Below, one piece after another: positions 16,489-21,935 of a DNA stretch of 64,000 bases. Origin of the DNA: Vicinamibacterales bacterium (GTDB lineage: Bacteria; Acidobacteriota; Vicinamibacteria; Vicinamibacterales; Fen-181). Within the stretch, counting starts at the first letter, position 1, and each line of letters begins with the position of its first letter. Both the position numbers and the translations under genes were made by a program. The notes below the pieces were generated by a model, which saw only the letters and a program-made list of their open reading frames with translations, searched no databases and had not been told where the DNA came from. The stretch spans positions 124,001 through 188,000 of the forward strand of contig DASXVO010000035.1 of the NCBI GenBank assembly GCA_036504215.1. The letters are read 5' to 3'.

Positions 16489-16489
<1 letters not shown>
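16438..16489 (-). repeat. Dispersed post-stop repeat, copy A (divergent)
   Basis: Contains the palindrome GCGAAGCTTCGC and then a degenerate form of the unit seen at 33359-33518 and 46519-46590. As in those copies, it directly follows a minus-strand stop codon (fahA stop at 16489). It fills nearly the whole fahA-cutC gap. Confidence 0.6.
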
Positions 16490-17814
<1,325 letters not shown>

Positions 17815-17821
17815 GCCTTGC

Positions 17822-18763
17822 TCACTCTCGGGTCGAGTGCGGGCCGAGCCAGCCGACCGCCTCGAGGTCGGCCAACGGTTCCCGGATCGAACACGAGCCG
17901 AACCGGCGCGCGAAATGGCGCGCGCGTTCGACCTGGGTGACGCTCGCGGCCTGGTCCCGCCACGTGATGCCGGCGTTGGAGAACCCGAACGCGTCCGGAC
18001 GCATCTCCTCGAGGACGGCCGACAGGTCGCGGATGTCGTGCCGACCGTCGTACGCCAGCACGGAAGCCATGAACACGTTGAGGAAACCGTGCATGACCTC
18101 GACGGGTGCCGCAGGACCATAAGTCAGCGGGTGACGCGATCGCACCGCGTGATGCAGACCCGCCGTCGCCTTGAACGGGACCCCGAGCACCGCGCACCGG
18201 CTGATGAACCGCGCGACCGCTCCGCTGTCCGGAATCGCCTCCGGCGTGACGCCGCCGGTCCGAATCTTCGCTGCCCGCCCGACATTACGAATCGCAACCA
18301 GCGATTCGTCGAGGCTGTCATCGAGCGTGCACTCGAAGAACAGCTCGATGTAGTCCGGCACCATCGCAGCGACCCGCCGGGTGTCGGCCGACGACGAGGG
18401 CTTCACTTCGAGCGCGTCGATATGGGCCGCATAGGCCGCCCCACCCGCGTGGCGCTGGTTGAACGCGGTGACGGCCGCCACCTCTCCTGTCAGGGGCGTG
18501 GCGGCGAGCACCGCCAGGCGCCACGCCTGCGCGCCCCGTTGCTCGGGCGAGAGCGCGCCAACCGCCTGCTCGAACTCCCCAAGCCGGGTGCATGGGACGA
18601 CGAACCGGCCGACCATCCATGCGTCGGGCGACAGCCGGTGGCGGGCGTACACGTCGACCGCCTCCTCGAGGCCCAGGGCTGCCGGTGGAAACAGGCCGGC
18701 ATAGTCGATGAGTTCGGCCAGGAGCGCCAACAGCGCCCCCGGGGTCCCGGTTCGTCTAGTCAT
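17822..18763 (-). CDS. Uncharacterised protein between hmgA and fahA
   Basis: 313 residues from the ATG at 18763, which overlaps the hmgA stop codon region by 8 bases. I recognise no characterised family. Visible features are LIDYAGLFPPAALGLEEAVD (residues about 12-31), WMVGRFVVPCTRL, DYIELFFECTLDD, a basic AKIRTGGVTPEAIPD block, VPFKATAGLHHAVR and HGFLNVFMASVLAYDG. The pattern of strands ending in short charged loops suggests an alpha/beta barrel. No signal peptide, no membrane span. Its place in the operon coincides with the step normally done by maleylacetoacetate isomerase, which is otherwise missing; that link is inference. Confidence 0.8.
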   Translation of the reverse strand: MTRRTGTPGALLALLAELIDYAGLFPPAALGLEEAVDVYARHRLSPDAWMVGRFVVPCTRLGEFEQAVGALSPEQRGAQAWRLAVLAATPLTGEVAAVTAFNQRHAGGAAYAAHIDALEVKPSSSADTRRVAAMVPDYIELFFECTLDDSLDESLVAIRNVGRAAKIRTGGVTPEAIPDSGAVARFISRCAVLGVPFKATAGLHHAVRSRHPLTYGPAAPVEVMHGFLNVFMASVLAYDGRHDIRDLSAVLEEMRPDAFGFSNAGITWRDQAASVTQVERARHFARRFGSCSIREPLADLEAVGWLGPHSTRE

Positions 18764-19913
18764 CCAGCCACGAGCGGAAGTACTGCTCGTCCTCAATCGT
18801 CAGGGCATCGGCGCTGACCTGGAGCGGGTGGAACGTATCGACCATCACCGCCAGTTCGTCGGTCCCCGCCTGCCCGATCGAGGCCTCGGCGCGGCCCGGC
18901 TGCGGACCGTGCGGCAGGCCATCCGGATGCAGCGTGATCGATCCGAGCTCGATCCCCTTCCGGCTCGTGAACTCCGAGCTGGCGTAGTAGAGCACCTCGT
19001 CGGACATGACGTTCGAATGGTTGTACGGCGCCGGCACCGCGTCCGGATGGAAATCGTAGGGCCGCGGGCAGAAGGAGCACACGACGAAGCCGTCGCCTTC
19101 GAAGGTCTGGTGCACCGGTGGCGGCAGGTGCACGCGTCCGACGCGCGGCTCGAAGTCGTGGATATTGAGCGCCCACGGGTAGTAGTAGCCGTCCCAGCCC
19201 ACGATGTCGAATGGATGGTACGACAGCACCATCTCGACCAGTTCATGGTCCTTCTTGACGACGATGGGGAAGTCGCCCCGCTCGTCGTACGGCTCGGTCC
19301 ATTCCGGCCGCCGAATGTCGCGTTCGGAGAACGGGCTGTGCTCGAGCAATTGGCCGTGCTCGTTCCGGTAGCGCTTTGGCGTGCGGACGTACCCCGCGCT
19401 CTCGATCACCAGACAGCAAGCCGGCCCGGCGTCGAACCGGTAACGGTGGAGGATTCCGCGCGGGACCACCACGTAGTCGCCGCTGCGGAAGGGCAGGAGG
19501 CCCAGCGGTGATTCGAGAATGCCGCTGCCCTCCGTGACGTAGGTGATCTCGTCGCCCTGCGCGTTCCGATAGAAGACGTCATCGTTCCGCTGCGGCCGTG
19601 CCACCGACAACGCGACATCGGCGTTGAACAGTATCGGGACGCGGTCGAACACGAGGCTGGGGCCGGCCTGCACCCGCGCGGTGCGGAAATGCCGGTGGCG
19701 GAGCAGCCGGTCGGGTTCGCTCTTCCAGTCCAGGCCACCGAGCCGGCGGACGCTCTCGACGCAGGTCGGCGGGTGCAAATGGTAGAGGAGCGAAGCCGGC
19801 CCCGTGAAGCCGTGGTTGCCGATCAGTTCCTCTGGCAGGAGTTGCCCCTGCTCGCCCCGGAAGGCGAGGTGGCGCTTGCGTGGAACACGTCCGAGCCGAT
19901 GGTAGATGGGCAT
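18756..19913 (-). CDS. hmgA: Homogentisate 1,2-dioxygenase
   Basis: 385 residues. Opens the ring of homogentisate with O2 to give maleylacetoacetate; cupin fold with non-haem iron. Motifs are RNDDVFYRNAQGDEITYVTE (cupin), VVVPRGILHRYRFD, SYHPFDIVGWDGYYYPWALN, EGDGFVVCSFCPRPYDFHPD and HSNVMSDEVLYY then LHPDGLPHGPQPG, which carry the His/Glu iron ligands. It is about 50 residues shorter than the human/Pseudomonas type, as in other short bacterial homologues. The start lies 3 bases after the hpd stop; the end overlaps the next gene. Confidence 0.94.
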   Translation of the reverse strand: MPIYHRLGRVPRKRHLAFRGEQGQLLPEELIGNHGFTGPASLLYHLHPPTCVESVRRLGGLDWKSEPDRLLRHRHFRTARVQAGPSLVFDRVPILFNADVALSVARPQRNDDVFYRNAQGDEITYVTEGSGILESPLGLLPFRSGDYVVVPRGILHRYRFDAGPACCLVIESAGYVRTPKRYRNEHGQLLEHSPFSERDIRRPEWTEPYDERGDFPIVVKKDHELVEMVLSYHPFDIVGWDGYYYPWALNIHDFEPRVGRVHLPPPVHQTFEGDGFVVCSFCPRPYDFHPDAVPAPYNHSNVMSDEVLYYASSEFTSRKGIELGSITLHPDGLPHGPQPGRAEASIGQAGTDELAVMVDTFHPLQVSADALTIEDEQYFRSWLDD

Positions 19914-19915
19914 AT

Positions 19916-21004
19916 TCAGAGGTTCCCGCGGAGCGCCTGTTCGCGTTCGATCGCCTCGAACAGTGCCCGGAAATTGCCCTTCCCGAACCCGTGGCTGCCC
20001 TTCCGCTCGATGATCTCGAAGAACACCGTCGGTCGGTCCTCGACCGGTCGCGTGAACACCTGCAGGAGGTAGCCGTCCTGATCGCGGTCCACGAGGATGG
20101 CCAGCTGGCGGAGTTGGTCCATCGATTCCGCGATGCCGCCCACCCGTTCCGGTAGCGACACGTAGTAGCTCTCCGGCACGCGCAGGAACTCGACGCCGTT
20201 GTCGCGCAGACGGCCGACCGTATCGCAGATGTCCCTCACCTGGAAGGCGATGTGCTGCACGCCAGGCCCCCGGTAGTACTCGAGGTACTCATCGATCTGG
20301 CTCTTCTTCCGGCCCGGCGCCGGTTCGTTGATCGGGAACTTGATCGATTGGGACTCATCCGACATCACGACGCTCATCAGCGCGCTGTATTCGGTGGAGA
20401 TGTCCTTGTCGTCGAAGCTGACGAACCGATCGAAACCGAGGATGCGGCGGTACCACTCGGCCCATTCGTTCATCCGGCCCAGTTCGACGTTCCCGACCAC
20501 GTGGTCGATCCGAAGCAGGCCGATGTCCTCGCCCGGCACATGACGCTCGACGAAGCCCGGGAGGAACGGGCCCGTGTACCCCTCGTCCGAGATGAACGAG
20601 TGCAGCGTGTCGCCGTAGGTGTGAATGGCCGCGTGGCGGACGGCACCGTGCTGGTCGCGCAGGTCGCGCGGCTCGACGGCCGGCCTCGCTCCGCGCTTGA
20701 CGGCCTCCTCGAACGCCCGATCCGCGTCGTCCACCTGGAAGGCGATATCGCGCACGCCGTCGCCGTGGCGCCTCAGGTGCTCGCTGGCCGGCACATCGGG
20801 GGAGAGCGGCGTCGTCAGGACGAACCGGATCCTGCCCTGCGTGAGCACGTACGACGTGTGCTCGCGTTGGCCGGTCTCGAGGCCAGCATATGCGGACTCC
20901 GAGAAGCCGAAGGCTCGGCGGTAGAAGTAGGCCGCCTGTCTCGCGTTCCCGACCCAGAACTCCACGTGGTGGATGCTTCTGAGCCGTAGCGGATGCTGCT
21001 GCAT
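19916..21004 (-). CDS. hpd: 4-hydroxyphenylpyruvate dioxygenase
   Basis: 362 residues, two vicinal-oxygen-chelate repeats. Converts 4-hydroxyphenylpyruvate to homogentisate with Fe(II) and O2. The N-terminal domain begins [20 protein letters not shown]. The catalytic C-domain has [20 protein letters not shown] (first iron His), [11 protein letters not shown] (second His) and [19 protein letters not shown] (Glu ligand and gating C-terminal helix). First gene of the operon hpd-hmgA-unknown-fahA. A 9-bp inverted repeat lies 10 bases upstream of its start. Confidence 0.96.
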
Positions 21005-21071: not shown

Positions 21072-21935
21072 TCAGGCCTGGACCAGCTTCTTCCAGTCCG
21101 GCGCCAGTTCGGCGACGAACCGCTCGAATGTCCGCGGCGCGTGGCCGAGGACCTGCTCCTGCGCCGCGAAGTCGCGGCCGCTCGGCAGCAGGCCGTGCGT
21201 GATGAAGTAGTCGTACATGATTCGAAAATCGTGCACCATCCACGGCGGGAACATCGTCGAGGCCTGCTGCGCCCACGCCTCGAGATCGTCGCCGGCGTAG
21301 CGGACCGGACGCCCGAGCGCCTCGCTGTAGACGCGGGCCGTGTCGTCGCCGGTCAGGCCGCGAGGCCCATGGAGCGGGAAGAGGCCGCTGATGCCCTTCG
21401 TAAACGCGTTGGCGGCGGCATCGGCAATATCGCGAACGTCCACGCGGTTGCAGCCGCGACCGCCGAGCGGCTGGGGGTAGACGCCGTGCTTCGCGATCGG
21501 ATCGCGCAGCCAGAGATCATTCTGGAAGAAGTTGTTCGGTCGGAGAATCGTCCACGGAATTCCCGATGCCTGGATGGATCGCTCCACCGGGATCTTCGAG
21601 GCAAAGTGCGGTATGACGTCCGAGCCGGGCGGCATCGCGACCGAGAGGTAGACGATCCGCTGGACGCCAGCCGCTCGCGCGGCCTCCACCGCCGCGAGGC
21701 TCTGTGTCGTTTCAGTCGGGCTGACTGTCGCGGCCAGGAAGACCGCCTCGACGTCCGTGAACGCCGCGGACAGCGTCGCGGGCTTCTCCAGATCTGCCAC
21801 GACCGCCGGGGCGGGCTGCCGGGCCGCCTTTTCCGTCGATCGCGTCATGACCGTGGGTTGGTGCCCGTCTGCCAGCAACTTCTCCAGCACGGCGTGACCG
21901 ACGGTGCCGGTGCCGCCGATGATCAGGACCTTCAT
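21072..21935 (-). CDS. NmrA-like NAD(P)-binding protein
   Basis: 287 residues, atypical short-chain dehydrogenase. The Rossmann loop GGTGTVGHAVLEKLL starts at residue 7; MTRSTEKA follows strand 2 (NADP preference suggested by Arg), then VFLAATVSPTETTQSLAAVE and VQRIVYLSVAMPPGSD. WTILRPNNFFQND and DVRDIADAAANAFTKG are the usual NmrA/HSCARG motifs. The classical YxxxK pair is absent, so it may sense redox state rather than catalyse; a quinone-reductase or sensor role are both possible. Preceded by GGAG. It lies upstream of hpd on the same strand. Confidence 0.88.
   Translation of the reverse strand: MKVLIIGGTGTVGHAVLEKLLADGHQPTVMTRSTEKAARQPAPAVVADLEKPATLSAAFTDVEAVFLAATVSPTETTQSLAAVEAARAAGVQRIVYLSVAMPPGSDVIPHFASKIPVERSIQASGIPWTILRPNNFFQNDLWLRDPIAKHGVYPQPLGGRGCNRVDVRDIADAAANAFTKGISGLFPLHGPRGLTGDDTARVYSEALGRPVRYAGDDLEAWAQQASTMFPPWMVHDFRIMYDYFITHGLLPSGRDFAAQEQVLGHAPRTFERFVAELAPDWKKLVQA

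Follow-up and report, generated by a model that had tools for sequence, protein, structure and literature searches.

The operon described here raises the question of how one step of a textbook pathway, the breakdown of tyrosine and homogentisate, is carried out when the gene for the usual isomerase, maiA, is missing. The step lies between 4-maleylacetoacetate, the product of HmgA, and 4-fumarylacetoacetate, the substrate of FahA. The operon is found in a stretch of 64,000 nucleotides from a Vicinamibacterales bacterium (referred to below as the window), and carries an unnamed gene between hmgA and fahA. We propose, with a probability of about 0.72, that this gene encodes a glutathione-independent maleylacetoacetate isomerase that is not homologous to MaiA. 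The activity is inferred from genome context, and none has been measured.

The operon and its unnamed gene

All genes of the operon lie on the minus strand, in the order hpd-hmgA-unnamed gene-fahA, and the junctions between them overlap or nearly do so. The products of hpd (19,916-21,004; 4-hydroxyphenylpyruvate dioxygenase, 362 aa) and fahA (16,489-17,814; fumarylacetoacetase, 441 aa, the next pathway step) were identified with NCBIfam equivalog models, scoring 457.6 bits against TIGR01263 (cut-off 277) and 537.2 bits against TIGR01266 (cut-off 375.3) respectively. The hmgA gene (18,756-19,913) encodes a divergent homogentisate 1,2-dioxygenase of 385 aa, which scored above the cut-off of PF20510 and only 42.5 bits against TIGR01015, far below the cut-off of that model. 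Identity between this protein and classical HmgA is about 25%, yet the position of its gene in the operon is unchanged. Upstream of hpd, also on the minus strand, is a gene for an NmrA-like NAD(P)-binding protein (21,072-21,935; PF05368), whose membership of the operon is uncertain.

The unnamed gene, our candidate for the isomerase gene, is an open reading frame of 313 aa on the minus strand (18,763-17,822), with its ATG at 18,763 and its stop codon at 17,824-17,822. Its first 8 bases are overlapped by hmgA, and a gap of 7 bases separates its stop codon from the start of fahA at 17,814. The position of the gene in the operon is a direct observation, and it agrees with the original prediction, which had described the overlap with hmgA, the 7-base spacing and an operon containing hpd, hmgA and fahA without an isomerase resembling glutathione S-transferase (GST). 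Nor was any maiA-like stretch found in the window.

That prediction allowed that the isomerase might be encoded elsewhere, and held that a maiA in the rest of the genome, combined with a lack of co-occurrence with homogentisate genes, would refute it. The window genome (Acidobacteriota, Vicinamibacterales; 5.92 Mb in 90 contigs, completeness estimate 100%) was searched in its entirety with TIGR01262 at E 0.001, and no match was obtained, so the first of these conditions did not hold; neither did the second (see below on co-occurrence). No glutathione synthetase scored above cut-off in the same genome.

A large uncharacterised protein family

The unnamed protein had no match in Pfam or NCBIfam at E up to 1, and none in the PDB by sequence or by profile. 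Pfam and NCBIfam searches with 68 or 23 family members did not lead to a known family either. The protein matched neither the MaiA model (TIGR01262, GST zeta) nor a GST domain, and so does not qualify as a MaiA. Homologues with 35-48% identity were observed in 34 of the 193 genomes of the class, together with one marginal match, and a single scan of representative genomes yielded at least 556 confirmed relatives. The best 80 of these came from Acidobacteriota, Planctomycetota, Gemmatimonadota, Chloroflexota, Cyanobacteriota, Ignavibacteriae, Fibrobacteres and unplaced records. Copies on plasmids add Bacillota (Priestia) and Actinomycetota (Streptomyces, Pseudonocardia, Rhodococcus, Nonomuraea) to this directly observed distribution; those annotated copies that we examined carry the label hypothetical protein. 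The protein is a member of a large uncharacterised family present in at least nine phyla.

Linkage to fahA

A fahA gene was present at 70 of the best 80 loci (out of at least 556 relatives). In homology alignments of the loci with fahA the gap between the family gene and fahA had a median of 30 bases, and was within 200 bases in 52 cases. All loci examined together contained 103 pairs of the two genes on the same strand, with the family gene directly upstream of fahA in 87 of them; no fusion of the two genes was found across these loci. The family gene adjoins fahA or hmgA in nine phyla, and keeps its place whether the neighbouring hmgA is of the window type or the classical type, which share about 25% identity. 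The constant partner of the family gene is fahA, whose product uses the product of the isomerase.

Gene orders on plasmids were hpd-family gene-fahA-hisC-hmgA in Priestia, hmgA-family gene-fahA-CoA transferase in Streptomyces, hmgA-family gene-fahA in Pseudonocardia, and a cupin of the HmgA kind followed by the family gene and fahA in Rhodococcus. The two types of hmgA alternate as neighbours of the family gene.

Co-occurrence with fahA and complementarity with maiA

The original prediction asked whether the family accompanies homogentisate genes in genomes that lack maiA. Of 199 Acidobacteriota genomes, drawn evenly, 42 had fahA above cut-off and 157 did not. The family was present in 33 of the 42 and in 1 of the 157 (Fisher p = 3e-28), a marginal match of 43 residues in one genome (G339) being left out of the count. 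The corresponding figures for the class were 33/43 fahA-positive and 1/150 fahA-negative genomes; the two samples overlap in some genomes and cannot be counted as independent.

Searches for maiA above cut-off were negative in all 50 family-positive genomes, drawn from several phyla, and in all 80 fahA-positive genomes of Acidobacteriota and Bacteroidota. The gene was found in one of the 193 genomes of the class (G117). This single maiA of the class (L114, 361-993) lies on a small contig of a fragmented genome, and was not taken as a genuine exception; contamination is probable, although not proven.

On Pseudomonadota plasmids maiA is located in the fahA operon. None of the 23 plasmid records that carry the family is from Pseudomonadota, whereas many of the 119 plasmid records that bear fahA are. 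For this phylum the complementarity rests on plasmid records, without a whole-genome sample. In the genomes sampled, most carriers of hmgA and fahA outside Pseudomonadota have no textbook isomerase. As maiA is nearly absent from the sampled phyla whether the family is present or not, the complementarity that we observe is between phyla and not within them.

Glutathione synthetase was detected above cut-off in 7 of the 68 genomes tested, all 7 of them cyanobacteria. Most hosts of the family could therefore not make use of a glutathione-dependent isomerase, although its presence in cyanobacteria means that it is not confined to hosts lacking glutathione synthetase. Taken with the absence of maiA from the window genome, the co-occurrence with homogentisate genes supports the reading of the unnamed protein as a non-homologous isomerase, again by inference from genome context: its gene accompanies hmgA and fahA where maiA is lacking, as the gene of such an enzyme should. 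The family probably replaces MaiA in many phyla, most of whose hosts have no glutathione synthetase.

The same data could reflect some other support of FahA or HmgA, such as removal of a toxic by-product (for example a succinylacetone-like or lactonised compound), repair, or a role as an assembly partner. Adjacency to fahA in nine phyla would fit any FahA-linked role, and the family gene is missing from some fahA-positive genomes. However, in the plasmid records the maiA operons of Pseudomonadota manage without the family gene even though fahA is common on these plasmids, the coincidence with the absence of maiA would have to be due to chance, and the pattern of conserved residues (see below) is that of an active site. 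We consider a supporting role unlikely.

fahA-positive genomes with neither gene

Neither the family gene nor maiA was found in 9 of the 42 fahA-positive genomes of the Acidobacteriota draw, 10 of the 43 of the class and 16 of the 28 of Bacteroidota; the 12 family-positive Bacteroidota include two with degenerate copies (G486 and G517). Some of the Acidobacteriota with neither gene have an operon hpd-phenylalanine hydroxylase-hmgA-fahA, complete save for the isomerase. The identity of the extra gene between hpd and hmgA is based on a reading of its translation, which looks like a phenylalanine hydroxylase. Operons with hmgA and fahA and without maiA or the family were seen at several Acidobacteriota loci (L144, L147, L149 and others), some of which also contain hpd and the phenylalanine hydroxylase-like gene.

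No shared candidate for a replacement isomerase was seen in the fahA-positive genomes with neither gene. These genomes are numerous, so a third solution to the isomerase step, or a way around it, must exist, and co-occurrence alone is no proof of the reaction. Their lineages may possess an unknown enzyme, their FahA may accept the cis compound, or isomerisation may be non-enzymatic. A bypass had been offered as an alternative explanation of the window operon; it holds good for other lineages, as one of two possibilities beside a third solution.

Predicted structure and conserved residues

The structure of the family protein was predicted with AlphaFold2 from 68 sequences. The model is a confident one (mean pLDDT 95.5, pTM 0.93) and its strands and helices alternate as in a TIM barrel. 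In a structural search, entries with the deoxyribose-phosphate aldolase fold ranked top (Z up to 14.9, rmsd 3.4, 219 residues aligned), and other TIM barrels followed with Z of 12.6 and lower. By its best Z of 14.9 the predicted model qualifies as a class I aldolase-like TIM barrel. A profile-profile comparison with 20 DeoC sequences indicated no relation (probability 2.4%), and in the absence of a Pfam, NCBIfam or profile match the protein cannot be counted as a DeoC. Homology to deoxyribose-phosphate aldolase (DERA) is not claimed, the likeness being at the level of the fold only.

These structural matches, the best that were obtained, would be expected if the protein were an enzyme similar to deoxyribose-phosphate aldolase that belongs to some unrelated metabolism and is present in the operon by chance. 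Linkage to fahA in more than 80 loci of nine phyla argues against this, as do the presence of a separate deoC above cut-off elsewhere in the window genome and the lack of any sequence-profile relation to DeoC. The linkage statistics largely refute this explanation, and we regard it as very improbable.

Alignment of 130 homologues revealed residues identical in all of them: D20, P27, E144, K166, R168, G170, G171, P178, K198, T200-L203, G226, G289 and C291. H204 was kept in 129 of the 130. The three blocks that had been picked out beforehand as suited to an active site, all encoded on the minus strand, are the best conserved in the family: DYAGLFPPA (residues 20-28; 18,680-18,706), with the invariant D20 and P27; AKIRTGGVTPEAIP (residues 165-178; 18,230-18,271), with K166 and R168; and VPFKATAGLHH (residues 195-205; 18,149-18,181), with K198. 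A fourth block, GSCS (residues 289-292; 17,888-17,899), which lies where the last strand ends and contains C291, had been overlooked.

When these residues are placed on the model, K166 and R168 fall on predicted strand 164-168, the sixth by our own count, K198 falls on predicted strand 197-200, the seventh, and C291 follows the last predicted strand, the eighth. The invariant K166 may thus sit on the sixth strand, where a Schiff-base lysine would be expected, but the strand numbering is our own and no residue-level superposition underlies it. Judged from the alignment, the invariant residues of the family are enzyme-like and resemble an active site, in which C291 is a candidate nucleophile.

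Linkage to fahA is absent for three divergent homologues, all of which have lost some of the conserved residues. One of them (L182) comes from the only fahA-negative genome with the family, an Acidobacteriota genome; its H204 and H205 are replaced by N and L, and the residues around C291 are changed. The other two (L192 and L193, from Bacteroidota) have lost both the HH pair and C291. Linkage to fahA thus coincides with an intact active site, although this rests on just three unlinked copies.

The L182 copy, which runs from position 132 onwards on the plus strand and has an altered GSCS block, sits on a 3-kb contig of a genome in which no fahA was detected and which may be incomplete. The degenerate Bacteroidota relatives (L192, 4,292-5,266; L193, 4,383-5,363) follow a HemW-like gene, and in another Bacteroidota genome (L150) fahA is found at that locus. 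These two copies are possibly a repurposed relic of the family gene-fahA pair.

Proposed reaction

As a maleylacetoacetate isomerase, the family protein would convert 4-maleylacetoacetate into its trans isomer. Isomerase activity is an inference, and the catalytic chemistry is inferred more weakly. In the mechanism that we envisage, R168, one lysine and H204, which are charged and invariant (H204 nearly so), would hold the dicarboxylate. The C4 ketone, which is conjugated to the cis double bond, would either be joined in an imine to K166 or K198 or be polarised by one of them. The thiol of C291 would then add reversibly to the cis double bond, the bond would rotate and the thiol would leave, C291 taking the role that the glutathione thiol has in MaiA. 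Activation of the cis-enedione by a lysine imine, with a protein cysteine replacing the glutathione thiol, would be a new isomerase chemistry; that the family is the unassigned glutathione-independent isomerase and works in this way we put forward as tentative, and are inclined to doubt in this precise form. If it is correct, a cis-trans isomerase has evolved on an aldolase-type barrel.

A fold closest to class I aldolases, with two invariant lysines on neighbouring predicted strands, would also suit an enzyme that splits maleylacetoacetate straight into acetoacetate and maleate or malate, either as a C-C hydrolase or as a lyase of the aldolase kind. Isomerisation would be bypassed, FahA acting in parallel on fumarylacetoacetate formed spontaneously, and genomes without any isomerase indicate that a bypass exists. 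However, fahA is nearly always present, directly downstream of the family gene. Direct cleavage would make FahA redundant, and loss of fahA would be expected more often than in 1 of 34 family-positive genomes. Direct cleavage therefore seems to us distinctly unlikely, and isomerisation remains the preferred reading.

Comparison with known systems

In deoxyribose-phosphate aldolase, strands six and seven bear the two catalytic lysines (K167 and K201 in the E. coli enzyme). DeoC, a class I aldolase, has the fold nearest to that predicted for the family, whose invariant lysines fall on predicted strands with these same numbers by our own count, without a residue-level superposition. The family differs from DeoC in having no sequence or profile similarity, in its invariant R168 and C291 and near-invariant H204, and in having no link to deoxynucleoside genes. 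Analogous cis-trans isomerisations are catalysed by two non-GST enzymes, mycothiol-dependent maleylpyruvate isomerase and maleate isomerase, the latter with a cysteine nucleophile. The folds of these enzymes differ from that predicted for the family, which has no Pfam match to either.

A glutathione-independent maleylacetoacetate isomerase activity was reportedly described in Gram-positive bacteria by Hagedorn and Chapman in 1985. We know of no gene for this activity. A literature search, which left most subscription journals outside its scope, found no paper naming the family or the gene of a glutathione-independent enzyme. The proposed reaction is the same and likewise needs no glutathione, and the family is present in hmgA-fahA clusters of Bacillota and Actinomycetota. 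We propose that the family accounts for the Gram-positive activity. A decades-old activity of Gram-positive extracts without a gene would then be assigned to a specific gene family, present in the culturable genera Priestia and Streptomyces.

The reaction itself is already known, and it is the enzyme family that is new. If the assignment is correct, an annotation gap in the pathway would be filled in at least nine phyla, and an unlisted protein family would receive a name. MaiA works through the glutathione thiol, which adds to the cis double bond and is expelled once this bond has rotated. MaiA (GST zeta, TIGR01262) and the family have the proposed reaction and the place in the operon in common. 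They differ in that the family has no sequence relation to MaiA, is predicted to form a TIM barrel instead of the GST fold, and has hosts that mostly lack glutathione synthetase. The two would then be unrelated enzymes for the same reaction, one of which employs a small-molecule thiol while the other does without.
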